From the IMG/VR virus record IMGVR_UViG_3300029449_000008, positions 1 to 37,252 of that record: 37,252 nt of DNA; one strand, 5' to 3'. The first letter of the stretch is position 1, and the number at the start of each line of letters is the position of its first letter. Source of the stretch: a virus. The position numbers and the translations under genes were made by a program. The notes beneath the pieces are model-generated. The model saw only the letters and a list, made by a program, of their open reading frames with translations, was not told the origin of the DNA and ran no database searches. Below, piece after piece: positions 2,874-37,252 of this stretch.

Positions 2874-3260
2874 ATGCTAAAAAATGAGTACAAAGAGTAT
2901 TTGAAAAGTAAGCACTGGAAAAATAAACGTAAAGAATTTTACAAAACTACTGAAGCCAAGTGCAGTTGGTGCGGTGAAACTAAGAACTTGAACTTGCATC
3001 ATCTAACTTATGACAATATAGGTAATGAAAAATTAGAGGACCTTATTTGTCTATGTGCATCTTGTCACAAGAAACTGCACCAAGAAACCGATAAGTTTAA
3101 AGTAAAAAGAAAACCTATAAAGAAAAAGAAAAACAAGATCCCCAAAAGAATTTTATGCCCTAATTGCAAATATTTTAATTTTGGGTATTATTGTGAAAGA
3201 TTTAAAAAAGCTGCCCCATATACTATGAAGATAAATTGCAAGGGTTACAGGAAGGGATAG
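2874..3260 (+). CDS. HNH endonuclease with C-terminal zinc ribbon
   Basis: The protein has 128 residues. The HNH core has C30-x-x-C33, H42-H43, C61-x-x-C64-H65 and H69, the pattern of zinc-stabilised HNH nucleases. A lysine-rich linker (73-92) leads to a second cysteine set (C95, C98, C107, C122) that probably forms another zinc site. Start is ATG at 2874 after GGAGG with a U-run between. It is the only gene on the plus strand, has its own promoter and a structured leader, and faces the endolysin gene tail to tail. A free-standing homing-type nuclease or a phage nuclease acting on competitor or host DNA are both possible. A packaging role is less likely because it is far from the terminase genes. 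Confidence 0.85.
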   Translation: MLKNEYKEYLKSKHWKNKRKEFYKTTEAKCSWCGETKNLNLHHLTYDNIGNEKLEDLICLCASCHKKLHQETDKFKVKRKPIKKKKNKIPKRILCPNCKYFNFGYYCERFKKAAPYTMKINCKGYRKG

Positions 3261-3301: not shown

Positions 3302-4513
3302 TTAATACTGCAACGTGTCATATCCTACTAGTACATAGTTACCATATACACTATCAAACCCTGCTTTTAACACTCTGCCGGCAAAACGCCTGTTCCATAG
3401 TATATCATAGTGAGCAGTTGTGTTGTGGCGATCTTCAGGTACTACATCATAAGCGTAGTGATTAGCATATCCCAACCATCCATTGGTTATATACTCTTCA
3501 GTATTAAAAAGTGTTTCATCTACAAAGTAATCAAGTTGTGTTTTACTGGGTAGGTATGCAGCTTTGTTCATATCTGCTAGATGCCATAATTCTTTATGTA
3601 TTCCGTTTACAACTGCAATGTGTAGGTGCGCTCCTTGACTTGCACTTCCGGTATTTCCCATCCTGCCAATATTACTTGCAGCTCTCCAAGGTAGTTCGGC
3701 GTTTACTGTGTCACCTTCTGTACAATATACTTTATCTAAATGTGCATACATAACTGTAAAAGTTCCGTTCATTTCTTTTTCCTCCAACATATCTATTTTA
3801 TCGGGCAATACTGGAACACCCCAACCAAAGTTAGTATCATATCCAACATCTCCTGCGTCTACTGAAATTGACTTCAATACTTCTATCATTTTATCTTGTG
3901 TCATTATTCCATACCTGGACATTATCAACGCAATGATACCCGATAGGGTAGGTTGTGAGAAGGAAGTTCCTTCCAGTTCTCCATGTAATGTTGCAAAATG
4001 CAAAGTATCTTCTCCGCAAGCCGAATAATATTCTTTTGTTATTTCGTCATCTTTAAGCCAAATAGCACCTACATTAATTGCTATATCTTCAAGGGTTGCC
4101 GTTACTCCATCGGTTCCGTCATTACCCGCTGAAGCCACCAGGATGACATTGAGAGACTTCAAATAATCCTCTGCAGGCTTTGCCATGCTACCACTAGTTG
4201 AAAGCCCTATAATGTGTATATTATTATCTTCTACAAACTTCTTTATGTCTATGTATTCACCGTCAACTTTTACATCAAAGTAAATCAATTCATTACCGGA
4301 ACACCTGGACCGATAACCATGTAGAAAGGTTTTAGCTTCAGGTGCAACCATGTTAAACACACTTACTACATTCTCGCCATGCCCTGAATCTTCCAACTCC
4401 AGGAAGTTTATTCCTTTACCTTTACGGCCTAATTCGTGCCATCTGCTAATGCCATGATAGTCAAGTGTTTCTTTTATTAATCTCCGTTTGCGTTCTTCAT
4501 ATGTTTCTGCCAT
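3302..4513 (-). CDS. Endolysin: subtilase fused to a circularly permuted M23 peptidase
   Basis: The protein has 403 residues. Residues 1-240 are a subtilase (S8)-like domain: H45 in DSGHGENV, oxyanion N131 in ASAGNDG, and nucleophile S184 in GTSFSQP. The catalytic Asp is not obvious; E41/D42 is nearest. Residues 250-303 match the second half of an M23 (LytM) zinc peptidase: YAHL, GDTV, IGRMGNTGS, then H296-L-H298. Residues 346-403 match the first half: H352-x-x-x-D356, then AGRVLKAG and YGNYVLVGYD, ending at the point where YAHL would normally follow. All metal ligands are present but in permuted order. As the last late gene after a holin it is the probable cell-wall lysin; the subtilase part might process the protein or cut cell-surface protein. 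Confidence 0.82.
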   Translation of the reverse strand: MAETYEERKRRLIKETLDYHGISRWHELGRKGKGINFLELEDSGHGENVVSVFNMVAPEAKTFLHGYRSRCSGNELIYFDVKVDGEYIDIKKFVEDNNIHIIGLSTSGSMAKPAEDYLKSLNVILVASAGNDGTDGVTATLEDIAINVGAIWLKDDEITKEYYSACGEDTLHFATLHGELEGTSFSQPTLSGIIALIMSRYGIMTQDKMIEVLKSISVDAGDVGYDTNFGWGVPVLPDKIDMLEEKEMNGTFTVMYAHLDKVYCTEGDTVNAELPWRAASNIGRMGNTGSASQGAHLHIAVVNGIHKELWHLADMNKAAYLPSKTQLDYFVDETLFNTEEYITNGWLGYANHYAYDVVPEDRHNTTAHYDILWNRRFAGRVLKAGFDSVYGNYVLVGYDTLQY

Positions 4514-4573: not shown

Positions 4574-4762
4574 TTAGTCTGTTATGCCTGTTGTGGTTGG
4601 GTTAACCAGTATTCCTGCAAGTACAAGAATTTGTATTACTGCAGTAGCTACGCCATTCACCATTTCAACCTCTGACAATGTTAATACTCCTGTAATTTGT
4701 AGTATTACTACTACTTGTGCTAATATTGCGATCCATGTTGCGTTACTCTTGATTCTTTTCAT
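4574..4762 (-). CDS. Phage holin, phi-LC3 family
   Basis: The protein has 62 residues from the start chosen here, ATG at 4762, placed 7 bases after AGGAGG. An in-frame ATG at 4780 has no ribosome site and is less likely. Two membrane segments are visible (about TWIAILAQVVVILQITGVL, and VATAVIQILVLAGILV), with a charged N-terminus. The ending NPTTTGITD matches the phi-LC3 holin signature (DPTTKGLSDS-like). The role is to make membrane lesions that let the endolysin reach the wall or trigger it. It lies directly upstream of the endolysin gene and downstream of a coiled-coil membrane protein. Confidence 0.88.
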   Translation of the reverse strand: MKRIKSNATWIAILAQVVVILQITGVLTLSEVEMVNGVATAVIQILVLAGILVNPTTTGITD

Positions 4763-4772
4763 TTGTTTCCTC

Positions 4773-5156
4773 CTAGTCAATTTGTCTTATCCATTCTATT
4801 ATACCCATTAAAGTTAATGTACATAATCCGGCACCAAGTACCGCCATTATTCCGAACACAACTTTAGTGAACACGCCTGATCTGAAATCATTTCTTTTCT
4901 TCGTTTCCGTTTCTTCGTTTCTCATTCTCATTTCCAATTTATCTATTGAATTTGCAAGTTTTAAGTTCGATTCATTTTGTTTATCTATTGAGTTGTTAAG
5001 ACGTTCGATACATTTGTCTAACTTTTTATCATTTTCCCATAATGATTTTATACTCGCCACGTTACGAGCGTTTTCTTCAAGTAGATGTTCAATCTTGTCA
5101 TCGTGCTTCATCAATTTTTTTTCATTATTATCAACTCGCTTTTCAAGGTTTTCCAT
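4773..5156 (-). CDS. Coiled-coil protein with C-terminal membrane anchor (XhlA-like)
   Basis: The protein has 127 residues. Residues 1-90 are a long, highly charged coiled coil. Residues 97-122 are one membrane segment (VVFGIMAVLGAGLCTLTLMGII), with a short tail. This layout and its place just before the holin resemble XhlA-type lysis-associated proteins. It may help holin function or link membrane and cell wall. The gene ends 10 bases before the holin start. Confidence 0.75.
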   Translation of the reverse strand: MENLEKRVDNNEKKLMKHDDKIEHLLEENARNVASIKSLWENDKKLDKCIERLNNSIDKQNESNLKLANSIDKLEMRMRNEETETKKRNDFRSGVFTKVVFGIMAVLGAGLCTLTLMGIIEWIRQID

Positions 5157-5166
5157 GAGTCACCGC

Positions 5167-8100
5167 CTATTTATCAGAAAGGTATTTCAATAATGAGCGG
5201 TATTGCTGTTCAGGAATGCCCTTCCGCTTCATGCTTGATTTAAGGTTCTGTTGCGTAACTCCATCATTTCTAAGGTCCGTTAACACTCTAGTTAAATACT
5301 TGTTGTCTTTAGACTCTAAGGCATCACTGAAGCTACTATATAAGTCAGACCGCGTTGGCTCTTTCCATATTTGTTGATATTCATAATATCTCTGTGGGCT
5401 TGAAATTCTCAAGGCGTCATCAAAATATTTTCTTATGTTAGCCACAGGCACACCGCCGAGTCTAGCGATTGCTTCTGTAAGGTCTTTTGTTTTGCCCGCA
5501 AATGTCTTACTACCTCTATTGTCTGCAATGTTGCGTACGGCGTCGAATAGGTCGTTTATACTTGACTCTGCGATGTTATCAACGTCCCATCCATCAACCA
5601 TTTTACTGAATATGTCTCCTATTAGATATGGAGTTCCTATTACACTACTTACAAAGTTTTGACCGATGTTACTTTCTTGGCCCCTTATCTCTTGTTGCGC
5701 TGTATTCAATCCGGCTATTACCATAGATGAAGTTATCAGTGCAGGAGTAACTTTCTTTATTTTGCTAAAATCTCCGGTAGCTTTAGCAGTTGCAATTGCA
5801 TCATACATCAGATTATAGTTTTTGTTTCTTTGTGTGCCAAACAATGTCATCAATTTAGGCAATGCACCTTTTTGACTTCCTGCCCTACTTCGATATAAAG
5901 CTTCATAGTTTGGTTGTGTCTTGTGTATGACGTCTTCTGTCCTACGTGCTACAGCTTCATAGAAAGCGTCTGATCCTTGTTTCAATGCTGTTGTATCAAG
6001 TATTTCCTTTTCAACTCCACTCCATATCTTCTTGATAGCCATTCCATCAAATACAGAAATAGGTTTTGTGAATATATCTGAAGCACCTTCTAATTTAAGT
6101 TGTCCAGTTTCTCTAGTTATGAAACCCTGGTTTCTTTTCCAAATCTCGGGAGAAAACTTTTCCATTATCTCTGTAGAAGGTAGTTTCTCGGTTAATCCGG
6201 CCACAAGATACTTTGGTGATAACTCTGCCGTTGCTGTTGGTAATGATGCTAACTGATTCAACCATACTTTTACATTTGCACCCAATACAGCTTTTTGACT
6301 GTTGGATATTAGCTTACCTGTAACATCTTCAGCTATATTGCTTTTATTATAACCGCCTTCCAGGTTCTTGAAAAGGTCATCCATGTAGTTTTCAACTTGA
6401 TTTCCGTATGATGATTTTAAAGCACGTCTAACTTTTGAGTTTCCAAATACCGCCTTGACGTTTCGTATTGGGACAGCAAGACCACTATAAGTAGATACTT
6501 GATTGATATTCCTATCCAATACATCAAACACATCCTCTATTACAATAGGGTTGCCTGAAGTTTGTCTTTCTTTTAATATGCCCATACCCTCTATAGACGG
6601 CGCGTTTTCAAACTTAGAAAAATCTTTGCTTCTATAATAAGCATCTGTGGTGATAGGATAGTATTTCTCAACTCTTGCTATGTCAAAGCCATCTAGGTCA
6701 ACCGAGGTCTTGTTTAAAGCGTCTTTCGATATCTTGTCGAAGTAATACCCCAAGTTGTCAGCTAAAGCCTTTTCCTGTGGCGTTAATGACTTTATAACGT
6801 CATCTATACCTTCCTCGGTGAACTTTAATGTATAAGCCATGTCTTTAGTTCTACCGCCACCCTCTATAAGATGCTTCATGTTTTGTGCATTCTTAGAGTG
6901 TAAGTATACAGATATCTTTTGTTGCGGTGTTAAATAGATGTTTTCATCACCCATTTTAAAAGCTTGCACTTGTGTTCCTAGGTCCTTATCGGATATACCG
7001 GCATTCTTTATGAAGTTTCTTGCTTTCTGTTCAAAGGCATTTTTTGCCCTAACTCCATCTTGTAATTGTTGATATGTCTTGTAAATCAAACTATTTTCGT
7101 CATAGTTGCCTAGCATCCTTATAACATGTTCGGGATCAGTAGCACCCATCTTAAAATACATATTAAATGCTTCTTTCCACTTATCGTCTTTGGCTAAAAA
7201 CTTACCAGGTTTGGAATTGTTTTGTACAACTTCATTCTGTACAGCTTTCAAATCTCTAACTCGTGAGTTGTTTATTAAGGCATTCTTTGTTTTGTTTAAG
7301 TGTTGGATGTGAGCGACAACATCTTGAATGTCTTTGAGTTCTTCAGTTGTTAATTCATTGATTTTCAACTTGTTTAATCGTTCAAGGTCTGCAGCAATCT
7401 TTGGATTCATAACAAAATCTTTGTTGTCAGCCTTTAAACTATCAAAGTAAGCTTGTGTTTTCTTCAGTGATATTTCTTTCTTAGGACTCATACCCTTAGC
7501 TTTTGTGTCAACCAAGTCAAGTATTTCGTTAGCCATATCATTGTACTCGTTGCGGAGTTTTGTTTTGTCTAATTTTTTAAGGTCCTTAAACACTTTGTTT
7601 CTGAATTCCTTTTCAGCCTTCTCATATTGGTCCGTAACGCGTTTGGCTTTTATTTCAGCCTTGTATGTTTCAAGCTTCTTTGTACCTCTTATACGTTCGG
7701 TTTCTTTGGCTACTTGGCCTTTTTGTTTCTGTAAGTCTAGTTTACTGGTTTCTTTTATTTTGGCATCAATAGAAGAAATTTGTTTATTAAGGCTGTCAAT
7801 CGCTTTTTGTTTAGCAAGTTTGTTTTCTTCCGCAATCGCCTTTGGCGTATCTATTGGTAATTCGTACTTTTTAACTTCATCCAACTGTTCAATCAATTCA
7901 TACCTATTAGCCTTTAACTCGTCAAGTTGTTTAGGTATGATTTCAGCCTTGCCTATTTCGGATTGCTTGAGTTCTTCAGCTTGCCTAAGTGCATCTTGGG
8001 TTTTGCTTAACCTTGGTTCTATTTGGTCAAATTGTTTTAATGGTGTTTTAGGAATGGTTATGCCATCATCTGTTTTGATGGTGGGAACTTCGGGCACTTT

Positions 8101-9750
8101 AGGTTCAATCTTAGGCGAAACTTCTCTCTCAAGTCTTTTAATCATCATCCTTGCGCTTGCTTCGCTTTGTTTACTTGCTGTCTTTTTATAAATCTTTTCT
8201 GAAACCTTCTCCCACCCTGCTTTTTCCAAATTATCAAGTGCTTTTTCGGTAGGTTTAATTTTAAACGAAATAAAAGTATTATCACCGTGAGTTTTATACT
8301 CACCTATAATAGATGGGATTTCAGGTGCTTTAGGCTCTATCGGTACAGGTTGTTCAACTTTAGGTTCTTCAATCTTAGGTGTTGGGACTTGTTCTTTTAT
8401 CTCAACTTTAGGTTTAGATTGTGCATCTTTAGAGAAATAAGCAAACTCATTGATGTCATTTCCATCCCAAATTATTTCATCCGCCTTAACTTCTTGGGAT
8501 ATAACCTTGCCATTTTTTGGTGCTTCTAGTTCTGCATATCCCTTTGACAAACTTATCCAATCGCCGTCATTTATACTCTTTGCATTTTCAGGAACACCAC
8601 GATATATTGTAACGACTGCATCAGGGTTGTTTCTAACATTTAACATAGCGTCAAATGATTCTTTAGTATTTATATCATTTACATCCATATACCATTCGGG
8701 GTTTGTATAAAAATCTTGCGGTATTAATTCTTCACCTTCAGATGTATATGTTAAATTATGCAACTTGCTAGTTTCTTCAGGGTTATAATCTATTCTATGG
8801 GACATTTTATAATCAGGTATTTCTTGCTTTATAACATTTTCTATTTCTGACTTTGGTAAAGTTGTTTCTTTTGCAGTAGCTTCAACAACTTCATCTATTT
8901 GAGTTTTTTTCATTTTCCTTAAAGCTGTAAACCCTTTACCAATTCCCATAAATGCAGCGTTAGCAACAATATCAATTATAGCCTGTTCGCCCATATACTT
9001 CGCGAGTTCGGTTCCTTGCAAACCTTTTTGTTTTCCTTCGATATAGTTAAGTGGTTGTCCTATTGCAACATCCTTTGCAAATTCAGTTGCCATTGTGCCT
9101 ATAACTTGACCAGTCTTACCGCCTATTGTCTTAGCTAAAGCACCAGTAGCAGGAGACACAACTTTTTCAACTGCACCACCACCCAATGCGTAAGCTGTTC
9201 CAAATTTTCCTACTGTTCCGATAGTTTCACCAATTTTATAAGGTGTTGTTTCTTTTATTTCGTCACCTTTATAAATTGATTTATCAACCAATCCGGCTTG
9301 TTTGTATTTATCGTAGGTTGTTTGATATGTCTTTTCTACATCGGGAATGTTATATCCTTGCGTTATACCGGCTTGAATAGGACTAGCAACCCTTTGACTT
9401 TCTTGGTATTGTAAACCTTCTGTAAGTCTTTGTTTAGCTTCTGCATCCGTTACCGTTTCTTTAGGTGTGAATATAGCTTTTATTCCTGCAAATGGGTCTG
9501 ACAACCTGGATGCAACATCAGTTTGTGGTGTGGTAATGTTATCCATAGTTTTACCAACAGCCTGTGTATAACTATCTAATCCACCCTTAACGCTGTCTTT
9601 GTAAGCTTGTAGTTTAGAAGAAACTTCCGGGGCAGCGGTTGAAGCTGCACTTTTAACGGAGTTCTTGTATTGTTCCAACTTGCTAGAGGTAGCTGTGTTT
9701 ATTCCGGTACTTTGGCTTTTTATATTTTTTTTATATTGTTCTAAGTCCAT
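5167..9750 (-). CDS. Giant virion protein with ADP-ribosyltransferase-like domain
   Basis: The protein has 1,527 residues. The N-terminus has a 22-residue repeat (LEQYKKNIKS at 3, LEQYKNSVKS at 25, LQAYKDSVKG at 47). Residues 170-275 are Gly/Ala-rich with hydrophobic stretches. Residues 345-440 look like a phage ADP-ribosyltransferase domain: R384 in TIYRGVP, GDWISLSKGYA with S400/S402, and E435 in NEFAYF, an R-S-E arrangement. Residues 450-800 are Pro/Lys/Glu-rich with long coiled coils. The C-terminal 700 residues resemble large polyvalent phage proteins. As the last gene before lysis, after the other tail genes, it is likely packaged and injected, with the enzyme domain acting early in the host. 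The enzyme call rests on motifs only. Confidence 0.72.
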   Translation of the reverse strand: MDLEQYKKNIKSQSTGINTATSSKLEQYKNSVKSAASTAAPEVSSKLQAYKDSVKGGLDSYTQAVGKTMDNITTPQTDVASRLSDPFAGIKAIFTPKETVTDAEAKQRLTEGLQYQESQRVASPIQAGITQGYNIPDVEKTYQTTYDKYKQAGLVDKSIYKGDEIKETTPYKIGETIGTVGKFGTAYALGGGAVEKVVSPATGALAKTIGGKTGQVIGTMATEFAKDVAIGQPLNYIEGKQKGLQGTELAKYMGEQAIIDIVANAAFMGIGKGFTALRKMKKTQIDEVVEATAKETTLPKSEIENVIKQEIPDYKMSHRIDYNPEETSKLHNLTYTSEGEELIPQDFYTNPEWYMDVNDINTKESFDAMLNVRNNPDAVVTIYRGVPENAKSINDGDWISLSKGYAELEAPKNGKVISQEVKADEIIWDGNDINEFAYFSKDAQSKPKVEIKEQVPTPKIEEPKVEQPVPIEPKAPEIPSIIGEYKTHGDNTFISFKIKPTEKALDNLEKAGWEKVSEKIYKKTASKQSEASARMMIKRLEREVSPKIEPKVPEVPTIKTDDGITIPKTPLKQFDQIEPRLSKTQDALRQAEELKQSEIGKAEIIPKQLDELKANRYELIEQLDEVKKYELPIDTPKAIAEENKLAKQKAIDSLNKQISSIDAKIKETSKLDLQKQKGQVAKETERIRGTKKLETYKAEIKAKRVTDQYEKAEKEFRNKVFKDLKKLDKTKLRNEYNDMANEILDLVDTKAKGMSPKKEISLKKTQAYFDSLKADNKDFVMNPKIAADLERLNKLKINELTTEELKDIQDVVAHIQHLNKTKNALINNSRVRDLKAVQNEVVQNNSKPGKFLAKDDKWKEAFNMYFKMGATDPEHVIRMLGNYDENSLIYKTYQQLQDGVRAKNAFEQKARNFIKNAGISDKDLGTQVQAFKMGDENIYLTPQQKISVYLHSKNAQNMKHLIEGGGRTKDMAYTLKFTEEGIDDVIKSLTPQEKALADNLGYYFDKISKDALNKTSVDLDGFDIARVEKYYPITTDAYYRSKDFSKFENAPSIEGMGILKERQTSGNPIVIEDVFDVLDRNINQVSTYSGLAVPIRNVKAVFGNSKVRRALKSSYGNQVENYMDDLFKNLEGGYNKSNIAEDVTGKLISNSQKAVLGANVKVWLNQLASLPTATAELSPKYLVAGLTEKLPSTEIMEKFSPEIWKRNQGFITRETGQLKLEGASDIFTKPISVFDGMAIKKIWSGVEKEILDTTALKQGSDAFYEAVARRTEDVIHKTQPNYEALYRSRAGSQKGALPKLMTLFGTQRNKNYNLMYDAIATAKATGDFSKIKKVTPALITSSMVIAGLNTAQQEIRGQESNIGQNFVSSVIGTPYLIGDIFSKMVDGWDVDNIAESSINDLFDAVRNIADNRGSKTFAGKTKDLTEAIARLGGVPVANIRKYFDDALRISSPQRYYEYQQIWKEPTRSDLYSSFSDALESKDNKYLTRVLTDLRNDGVTQQNLKSSMKRKGIPEQQYRSLLKYLSDK

Positions 9751-26538: not shown

Positions 26539-26632
26539 CCGCCTTCACCACATCCACCCACCTATATAATTCTACCAGACAGTAGGATAGTATGCTGCAG
26601 ATCGTTATACCTATTATAGTTAGTCTAATCAT
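26531..26632 (-). CDS. 33-residue single-pass membrane peptide
   Basis: The frame starts with ATG at 26632, inside the last codons of the PP-loop gene (ATGATTAG overlap), with GGGAGG 9 bases upstream. It encodes MIRLTIIGITICSILSYCLV and then a short polar end (ELYRWVDVVKAGI). The hydrophobic stretch (residues 4-20) is long enough to span a membrane. The overlap means it is co-translated with the PP-loop protein, so a functional tie is likely. It could be a membrane tether or toxin-like peptide; nothing decides this. Confidence 0.7.
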   Translation of the reverse strand: MIRLTIIGITICSILSYCLVELYRWVDVVKAGI

Positions 26633-27383
26633 TTAGTATATCCTCCCATGTTATTTGGTTTTCTATTTGCTGCAGTGTTTTTAAATTATGTTTAATATTA
26701 AACTGTCCAGGTTTCACAAATCCACCTTTTGTCGTTTCACTTACATAAAACATTAACTCTTTCCATTGATCCGGGAAACATCTTTGTAACTTCTTTAAAC
26801 TTTCATCCCCTTGTTTTGGACAAAGGAAGCAGCCTAATCTTTCAAAATAATCATACAAAGGATTTAATATTCCCTCCTTCTCGCAATACTCTCTGCAATC
26901 TATTTCCTGCATGTTCCAATCTATCAAAGGATATCCATGTGTGGGATCTCCACTACCTTCAAGATATCTTTTTATTATCTTCTGTCTTTTGGTTGATTTT
27001 TCATCTATTGCATAACCTATGTATTGTATATAATCATTCCCCAATTCCTTCAAATAATTTTGTATGGGCTTAACTTTGGCTTCTCTTGTCCAATAACAAC
27101 TAAATGCTACTAACGGGAATCCCCTTTTCTTACCTTCGCTTTCGCCTCTTGTAACTTTACCATAAAACCAATTATCAAAAGTATCCTCTGTTTTCAGAAC
27201 TGTGCATTCTTTGCCTTCGTGTTGCCATTTAGATATAAGTTTGTGTCTCATTTCTTTTTCTTGCGGAAACTCCTTTTCGATAGCCACAAACACAATTTCA
27301 TCAAGGGGCATCCCTTTCTTGATTATTAAATCCGTCATTGCTACAGAATCTTTTCCACCGCTGCAAAATGATATATATTTCAT
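26625..27383 (-). CDS. PAPS reductase-like PP-loop ATPase
   Basis: The protein has 252 residues. The PP-loop is SGGKDS at 8-13, which binds the ATP or PAPS phosphates. A Cys-rich part near the end (RLGCFLCPKQ, C185/C188) is as in phage members of the PAPS reductase/DndC-like superfamily and could hold zinc or iron-sulfur. Other cysteines (C96, C163, C167) stand in the middle. Family members reduce PAPS in sulfur assimilation or activate substrates for nucleic-acid modification; which applies here cannot be told. It overlaps the genes on both sides, a CxxC protein and a membrane peptide. Confidence 0.82.
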   Translation of the reverse strand: MKYISFCSGGKDSVAMTDLIIKKGMPLDEIVFVAIEKEFPQEKEMRHKLISKWQHEGKECTVLKTEDTFDNWFYGKVTRGESEGKKRGFPLVAFSCYWTREAKVKPIQNYLKELGNDYIQYIGYAIDEKSTKRQKIIKRYLEGSGDPTHGYPLIDWNMQEIDCREYCEKEGILNPLYDYFERLGCFLCPKQGDESLKKLQRCFPDQWKELMFYVSETTKGGFVKPGQFNIKHNLKTLQQIENQITWEDILND

Positions 27384-33141: not shown

Positions 33142-33165
33142 AAAAAAGAGGTGATTTCTCACCCC
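33142..33165 (-). terminator. Strong terminator at end of early block 1
   Basis: Seven-pair stem (GGGGUGA with UCACCUC) and a GAAA loop, followed by UUUUUUAUU. It starts at the stop codon of the transglutaminase-like gene and separates the two early operons. Confidence 0.88.
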
Positions 33166-33752
33166 TATTCTATCCACCCCTGCACCCTTACAACTACATC
33201 ATCCAGGGATATGTCTACAGTTTGCCATTCTCCGTTAATGTATACTTGATTCCAGGCGTGTCGTACACTTTTCAATTCTTCTGAATATACTTGTCCCACT
33301 ACTACTTTGCAAGGGATGTTCAATCTTCGTAAATACCAAGCCAGATACTTGGCGTCTTGCTCGCATACCCACCCTTCTTGTTGGCTGCAGTATTCTTTGA
33401 CTTGTTGAATTATCGGATCAATATTAATTTCCAGTTCTTCAAATCCGAAACAATCATAAGTATTTTCCAGGTAGGTCGGCTCATAGTCTGAATAAACCTT
33501 ATCTCTTTGATAATACCTATAAACTCCGTCATCATCTTGGTGATACAACCTTATATCATATGTTCCTGTCCCAAGCCTTAGAGGTATCGTGTAAGGGCTT
33601 ATCCCGTGCGTCCAATAGTATTGTATGCCTTCGTCGTGTTTGATGTATACAAGTGGTGCATCGACTGTTACATATCCGTCTTCGATATCTTCATTTGTGA
33701 AACCTACTAGCATTATTGAAAACGCTAGTAGGAGTATTAATATCTTTTTCAT
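33165..33752 (-). CDS. Secreted transglutaminase-like protein
   Basis: The protein has 195 residues. The N-terminus is a signal peptide (MKKILILLLAFSIMLVGF). No lipobox Cys follows, so it is probably secreted. Residues 115-185 form a transglutaminase-like core: C130 in GWVCEQDAKYLAWYLRRL, H165 in RHAWNQVYINGEW and D180 in VDISLD, the classic Cys-His-Asp order. Such domains cut or cross-link peptides at the cell surface. As an early gene on a lytic phage it could modify the wall or block superinfection; this is inference. It ends at a strong terminator and follows the dUTPase gene without a gap. Confidence 0.82.
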   Translation of the reverse strand: MKKILILLLAFSIMLVGFTNEDIEDGYVTVDAPLVYIKHDEGIQYYWTHGISPYTIPLRLGTGTYDIRLYHQDDDGVYRYYQRDKVYSDYEPTYLENTYDCFGFEELEINIDPIIQQVKEYCSQQEGWVCEQDAKYLAWYLRRLNIPCKVVVGQVYSEELKSVRHAWNQVYINGEWQTVDISLDDVVVRVQGWIE

Positions 33753-36453: not shown

Positions 36454-37252
36454 TTACACCTCTATTCCCATTATCATTTTAAACTTTTCAGAATCAAAAT
36501 TCGGAATATCTTTGATTATTTGTTTTTCGTCATCGGTCAATTTTTCCCACCATTCTTGATTTACTTTCGATAAATCATTTTTCTTTAGATAACCACCAGT
36601 TGTCTTATAAGAAGGATGGCTTTCTTTTTCTTCTTCATACATAGCATCTTCCCAAACCCATTCGCAAGGGATATAATTTATTCGTCTTAACAATCTACAT
36701 GCTTTGCTGTTTCTCCATTGGTCTAATGTCATATAGGTTTCAATATCAAATATTCTTATTTTGTGTTGTTCGGTACAGAAACAACCAGTTTCATTGTCAG
36801 ATATATTAAAATCTCCTGTACATCTGTCTCCGCTGTTCCTGTTTCCGCTGTTACTGTCTCCGCTGTTACCGTATCCGCTGTTCCTGTCTCCGCTGTTACC
36901 GTTTCCGCTGTTACCGTATCCGCTGTTACTGTATCCGCTGTTCCTGTCTCCGCTGTTACCGTATCCGCTGTTACCGTATCCGCTGTTCCTGTATCCGCTG
37001 TTACCGTATCCGCTGTTACTGTATCCGCTGTTACCGTATCCGCTGTTACTGTATCCGCTGTTCCTGTTTCCGCTGTTACCGTATCCGCTGTTCCTGTCTC
37101 CGCTGTTCCTGTTTCCGCTGTTCCTGTTTCCGCTGTTACTGTTTCCGCTGTTACTGTCTCCGCTGTTACTGTCTCCGCTGTTCCTTATACCAGTATTTCC
37201 TTTGCCAGTATTAGCAAGCTTCAACATTTCTTGCCATGAAACTTCTCGAACT
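36454..37252 (-). CDS. Pentapeptide-repeat protein, main part (5' end at 369)
   Basis: In-frame continuation of the gene that starts at 369. It has 24 consecutive perfect repeats of the form N-S-G-x-x, where x-x is mostly D/N/Y then S/R/G, followed by CTGDFNISDNETGCFC and a C-terminal domain of about 100 residues (KIRIFDIETYMTLDQWRNSKACRLLRRI ... WWEKLTDDEKQIIKDIPNFDSEKF). NSGxx repeats should stack as a beta-helix like the pentapeptide_2 family. Similar gut phage proteins exist; the function is unknown. It could bind a host factor or mimic DNA, but this repeat differs from the A(D/N)Lxx type of DNA-mimic proteins. It is in the early operon. Confidence 0.86.
   Translation of the reverse strand, partial: VREVSWQEMLKLANTGKGNTGIRNSGDSNSGDSNSGNSNSGNRNSGNRNSGDRNSGYGNSGNRNSGYSNSGYGNSGYSNSGYGNSGYRNSGYGNSGYGNSGDRNSGYSNSGYGNSGNGNSGDRNSGYGNSGDSNSGNRNSGDRCTGDFNISDNETGCFCTEQHKIRIFDIETYMTLDQWRNSKACRLLRRINYIPCEWVWEDAMYEEEKESHPSYKTTGGYLKKNDLSKVNQEWWEKLTDDEKQIIKDIPNFDSEKFKMIMGIEV
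36823..37182 (-). repeat. 15-base tandem repeat array coding NSGxx
   Basis: Twenty-four units of 15 bases, coding AAC-AGC-GGA-x-x. The first 9 bases are nearly invariant and the last 6 switch among a few combinations (GACAGT, AACAGG, TACGGT and so on). Units this regular can expand or shrink by slippage. The array also extends over 1-57 as the second copy of the same bases. Confidence 0.93.
37126..37252. repeat. Terminal overlap, copy 2 (circular contig end)
   Basis: Same 127 bases as 1-127. Treat one of the copies as redundant when joining the circle. Confidence 0.93.

Follow-up and report, generated by a model that had tools for sequence, protein, structure and literature searches.

The window, the whole 37,252-nucleotide stretch of viral DNA that we analysed, contains a lysin gene (3302..4513, minus strand; 403 amino acids plus stop) that very likely encodes a holin-dependent phage endolysin, whose wall-cutting part is predicted to be a circularly permuted M23 (LytM-type) zinc endopeptidase. 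The open reading frame and its Pfam matches describe a fusion of a subtilase-like domain with the M23 domain (residues 248–403; 3305..3772, minus strand), the latter delimited by alignment with the lysins of two other phage contigs (L036 and L037) and by profile tests. It is the only M23 domain in the 37-kb window. The canonical C-terminal half now stands first (residues 248–325; 3539..3772, minus strand), carries YAH258L, H296-L-H298 and a tail, and aligns to positions 42–88 of the PF01551 profile. The canonical N-terminal half now stands last (residues 326–403; 3305..3538, minus strand); it contains H352-xxx-D356, YDIxWNRxxxGxV and the YGNYV strand, and was assigned from its identity to L036 and L037 and from a shuffle test. 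The canonical order, HxxxD before HxH, is reversed in the window protein, L036 and L037, and because the halves are swapped in all three we class them as a permuted M23 variant rather than as ordinary members. The permuted M23 is probably the active endolysin domain. With at least three divergent members, the permuted group is a real and apparently undescribed version of the enzyme, and we found no description of a permuted M23 in the open-access papers that we searched.

Swapped order of the M23 halves

The first-pass annotation had placed the HxH half ahead of the HxxxD half with all zinc ligands kept. Its residue numbers are exact in the open reading frame (Y256-A-H258-L, H296-L-H298, H352-YAY-D356, AGRVL at 378 and YGNYV at 390), the order is as it described and recurs end to end in the two other phage contigs, and every M23 motif residue is present in the window domain. 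The HxH motif is accompanied by YAH258L and GNTG, and H352-YAY-D356 is invariant in the window protein, L036 and L037. Pfam detects residues 249–302 as M23 (PF01551, 1.1e-7), covering only the second half of the profile, positions 42–88 of 96; the score, 32.4 bits against a curated cut-off of 28.7, is reached over half of the model and rises to 39.1 in the rejoined order. The Pfam match of the ordinary M23 protein P0002 begins at model position 2 (77.7 bits), whereas those of the permuted proteins begin only at 42–44. The window domain shares HxxxD, YAHL, GNTG and HLH with ordinary M23 enzymes (PF01551; lysostaphin, LytM and the phage lysins at L024:5927-6403 and L010:7417-8010) but has its halves swapped, its new ends in the GNY/YAHL hairpin and the usual ends joined. 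The normal-order lysin at L010:7417-8010 is itself followed by an apparent partial SLH tail.

Three sequence tests, together with stand-alone relatives in the same order, support the circular permutation. We built a normal-order profile from eight phage M23 domains and compared native proteins with rejoined ones, in which the C-terminal half was moved ahead of residues 248–325. The earlier annotation had suggested comparing residues 346–403 joined to 250–303 with M23 profiles. The rejoined window protein scores higher, reaching 48.0 bits in a single domain where the native protein has 35.1 in its best one; L036 and L037 rise from 41.0 and 41.8 bits to 62.0 and 65.3. When the C-terminal half of each of the three proteins was shuffled 1000 times, 0/1000 shuffles reached the rejoined score in every case. 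About ten extra residues behind the HxxxD motif leave it outside the profile alignment; we assigned it from the motif itself, its place and its conservation. In tblastn searches of phages the rejoined query found M23 matches with E values from 2e-5 to 4e-5 (87% coverage at 4e-5), and the M23 part in native order found none better than about 0.1.

For the reverse direction, we combined the three permuted proteins into a profile of 153 positions. At 12 distinct loci (L010, L019, L022, L024, L040, L041, L015–L018, L020 and L021) it aligns to ordinary M23 domains in two adjoining segments whose order is swapped. Profile positions of about 130–152 come first and about 4–78 follow shortly behind, as in L010, where the segments are residues 56–81 and then 83–157. 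The first segment is weak on its own (−2 to 13.5 bits), and its place is identical each time. These swapped, abutting segments locate the opening of the chain in the hairpin between the GNYvvi and YAHL strands; the earlier annotation had remarked that the protein ends where YAHL would normally continue.

A scan with the rejoined domain found L036, L037 and L038, whose matches end precisely where the C-terminal half of the window protein ends. The first-pass annotation had suggested seeking relatives of this order in other phages, and they exist as small stand-alone lysis genes. The L036 lysin has 156 residues (MNAYTVRFAHL...NHLHI...DHPAYDVVPEDRH...GNYILIGFEA-stop) and that of L037, which begins with TTG, has 152 (KYTVRYAHL...NHLHI...LHLAFDVVPENRH...GNYIHVLFEA-stop). 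L038 carries the same lysin as L037 and is counted with it as one relative, leaving two independent permuted relatives, both from metagenome contigs. Both are collinear end to end with window residues 248–403 (38–40% identity, blastp E 3e-34 to 5e-33), reach 46–47% identity over residues 326–403, and keep the histidines of YAHL, HLH and HxxxD and the aspartate invariant. Their start codons overlap the stop of an upstream membrane-protein gene (ATGA and TTGA) and the genes stop immediately past the GNYI strand, which makes the permuted unit a whole protein in its own right. A holin (phrog_3427, 1.5e-24) sits two genes downstream of the L037 lysin. The L036 contig has a portal, an S49-like protease and a different type of head genes; since the L036 and L037 contigs differ in gene content from the window, the permuted gene is distributed over unlike phages.

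Searches of 50,697 phage and 72,556 plasmid records turned up no full-length permuted protein. A tblastn search of phages and plasmids with the whole protein gave half-domain or general subtilase matches only, and two scans of genome contigs gave no match. Several candidates were rejected: the faecal phage contigs L004–L007 have M23 in normal order, L001 was a chance peptide match, and a match at E 0.6 in Bacillus phage phiAGATE is near a tail sheath gene.

The stretch between the HxH and HxxxD motifs had been taken for a new linker (residues 304–345), a view that needs correction. Residues 304–351 resemble an ordinary M23 C-terminal tail, DMNKAAYLPS (compare DIDPAAYLAE in L004), followed by an N-terminal head, ITNGWLGY; in ordinary M23 proteins the tail lies behind HLH, and the head, with an ITxxFG strand, lies ahead of HxxxD. 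The spacing from HLH to HxxxD is 54, 64 and 61 residues in the three permuted proteins. Read as tail then head, the region makes the permutation a clean swap, with the old ends joined and the new ends in one hairpin. Duplication followed by loss of the ends is a plausible route to it; we saw no leftover repeat or other trace of a tandem duplication. Circular permutation has a precedent in another wall-hydrolase fold, the permuted LRAT/YaeF branch of the NlpC/P60 superfamily (PMC6403190), whose members differ from M23 in being cysteine enzymes of an unrelated fold.

Predicted fold and zinc site

AlphaFold gave a pTM of 0.70 with three sequences and, with 17 rows, a compact single domain (pTM 0.75, mean pLDDT 72), in which the stretch just before HxxxD has low confidence (pLDDT under 50 at model residues 88–105). 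MAFFT had placed the HxxxD halves of normal M23 proteins wrongly on the permuted frame, and for this reason the second AlphaFold job took only safe fragments. By analogy with ordinary M23 enzymes, H298, H352 and D356 would converge in one site to bind zinc, and H258 and H296 would be the catalytic histidines.

A Foldseek search of the PDB and BFVD with the model returned nothing significant, and no M23 entry was among its matches. With a second structural aligner the matches were weak (Z no higher than 4.1); almost all were RNA-polymerase chains and none was an M23 chain, although a sequence-order aligner would tend to miss a permuted target. We read the RNA-polymerase matches as barrel-sandwich-hybrid domains, which have the duplicated hybrid motif fold. 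A 2024 paper groups barrel-sandwich-hybrid domains with peptidase M23 and describes their topologies as related by circular permutation (PMC11515920). Taken together, the modelled matches and that grouping agree with a permuted M23 fold and prove little by themselves.

The subtilase part, the lysis cassette and an internal start

Residues 1–247 (3773..4513, minus strand) form a subtilase (S8)-like part, detected by Pfam at residues 56–232 (PF00082, 8.9e-10; 38.8 bits against a curated cut-off of 21.8). A five-protein alignment (window, L009, L012, L013 and L014) shows E41, H45, N131 and S184 to be invariant. The triad residues His45 and Ser184, the latter in GTS, and the oxyanion Asn131 are kept, Glu41 stands at the position of subtilisin Asp32, and the Asp-to-His loop is almost absent. 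The triad Asp position holds Glu in most relatives and Asp in L011 and L024. The window part shares the HG, AGN and GTS..P motifs with family S8 (PF00082) but differs from it in having no normal Asp block, the Asp being replaced by Glu in most relatives too, and in the lack of any hydrophobic export signal that we could see. On balance the predicted subtilase is somewhat more probably active than inactive; with Glu where Asp is usual, it may instead be inactive.

The union with a subtilase had been listed as a further oddity, a description that does not hold, because successive scans, each with an enlarged alignment, located subtilases of this kind within or close to the lysis genes of 12 other loci (L012/L028 being cut off at the contig end). 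Subtilases with this short loop recur in phage lysis cassettes (L009, L011–L014, L024, L027, L029 and L031–L035). Unlike the S8 family at large, this kind is found in phage lysis cassettes fused to SLH (L009, L029 and L031), to a copper-amine-oxidase-N-like domain (L011–L013, L024 and L032–L035; by Pfam for L013 and L024, by similarity for the rest), to amidase_2 (L014, and L027 by similarity) or, as here, to M23. None of the subtilase relatives has a permuted M23. The closest of them, L024, is 48% identical over residues 1–237 and has its genes in the same order. Its M23, of normal order, is encoded by a separate gene directly behind the subtilase gene; the window accordingly fuses into one gene the L024 layout of a subtilase plus binding domain followed by an M23 gene.

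Upstream of the lysin gene, in the same direction, lie a holin gene (Phage_holin_1; 4574..4762, minus strand; PF04531, 1e-6; phrog_297), whose product has two hydrophobic segments, and a gene for an XhlA/hemolysin-like membrane protein with a coiled coil and one C-terminal hydrophobic segment (4773..5156, minus strand; phrog_937, 9.8e-6). These two genes put the lysin gene in the endolysin position, a place in the lysis cassette that it shares with phage M23 endolysins. Further upstream, a gene for a 1527-aa protein without a Pfam match (5167-9750, minus strand) occupies a position that in L014 and L024 is also taken by a gene for a protein of similar size (1076 and 1156 aa, respectively). About 40 nt past the lysin stop codon, on the opposite strand, is an HNH endonuclease gene (2874-3260, plus strand), a possible homing element. 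Elsewhere on the minus strand the window encodes a PAPS-reductase-like protein (26625-27383; PF01507, 2.7e-13), a transglutaminase-like protein (33165-33752) and a pentapeptide-repeat protein (36454-37227).

At the domain junction, an internal Shine-Dalgarno sequence, GGAGG (3781..3785, minus strand), lies 8 nt ahead of an in-frame ATG for M248 (3770..3772, minus strand), which aligns with the start codon of the stand-alone L036 lysin. From this alignment and the kept Shine-Dalgarno sequence we infer that the gene probably makes both the S8–M23 fusion and a free M23 of 156 aa. Internal Shine-Dalgarno sequences with a start codon are frequent at the junctions of lysis-cassette subtilase genes. 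In 13 such genes, sites of at least five Shine-Dalgarno-like bases precede 7 of the 28 start-like codons within 30 residues past the subtilase, against 4 of 171 elsewhere; the Fisher p of 1.2e-4 is optimistic, because some of the genes are related and the 30-residue span was chosen after the pattern had been seen. Endolysins with internal starts ahead of a C-terminal domain are known (PMC4777826, PMC9430671). The window gene has the in-frame Shine-Dalgarno sequence and start before the C-terminal domain in common with two-product endolysins (CTP1L and CD27L, PMC4777826; survey, PMC9430671), but their short product is the wall-binding domain, whereas that of the window would be the catalytic M23 itself.

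Origin, competing readings and meaning

We propose that an M23 chain was opened in the GNYvvi/YAHL beta-hairpin and its usual N- and C-terminal ends were joined via residues ~304–345. The permuted domain probably came from a small stand-alone lysin gene, such as those of L036 and L037, which would have been fused in frame behind a lysis-cassette subtilase, in that direction, and would have kept its own ribosome-binding site and the M248 start codon. In the fusion, the subtilase would probably cleave envelope proteins; the domains that usually accompany it bind walls, which makes S-layer or wall proteins a likely target. The M23 part would cut peptide bridges.

The two halves might instead not form one domain, being remnants of separate M23 proteins or having their zinc site completed by another chain through a domain swap or a split enzyme. 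Two-polypeptide endolysins are indeed known to form multimers (PMC4777826, PMC9430671), but we judge this reading unlikely: three divergent proteins keep the same order and a similar length, two of them as whole genes of 152–156 aa, all motif residues are kept, unlike in decaying remnants, and AlphaFold returns a single compact model (pTM 0.75). A domain-swapped dimer, moreover, would still be a permuted M23 at the level of sequence. That a normal S8–M23 gene was scrambled by metagenome assembly or rearrangement is barely credible; the window is an assembled contig from an IMG/VR virus record, but its open frame is uninterrupted, and we reject an assembly error because the same order occurs in the independent contigs L036, L037 and L038, with intact neighbours.

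It is also unlikely that the subtilase is the working part and the permuted M23 has a structural or regulatory role, such as that of a non-catalytic LytM activator. EnvC and NlpD are degenerate LytM factors and give such a role a model; here, however, the catalytic and metal motif residues are all present and invariant in three proteins, and in L036 and L037 the permuted M23 is itself the lysin-position gene of the cassette. Returning to the permuted endopeptidase, a broader and rather speculative proposal is that a permuted M23 gene of about 150 residues forms a distinct phage lysin lineage across diverse phages, in which the new N-terminus lies near the active site and a fusion partner could thereby control activity. 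In the window, the subtilase fusion would then be latent, and active M23 would be freed by the protease domain of the fusion itself or by the internal start.

Few wall hydrolases are as common as the M23 enzymes, which are much used in work on enzyme antibiotics and whose motifs are taken by profile databases to come in a single order. If a permutant occurs naturally, the duplicated-hybrid fold must be able to accept new termini next to its active site, and fusions of a new geometry become available. The permuted order would also explain lysins that are missed, or seen as half-domains, in Pfam, PHROGs and NCBIfam. Finally, the gene draws attention to a recurrent and little-noticed subtilase of phage lysis cassettes.
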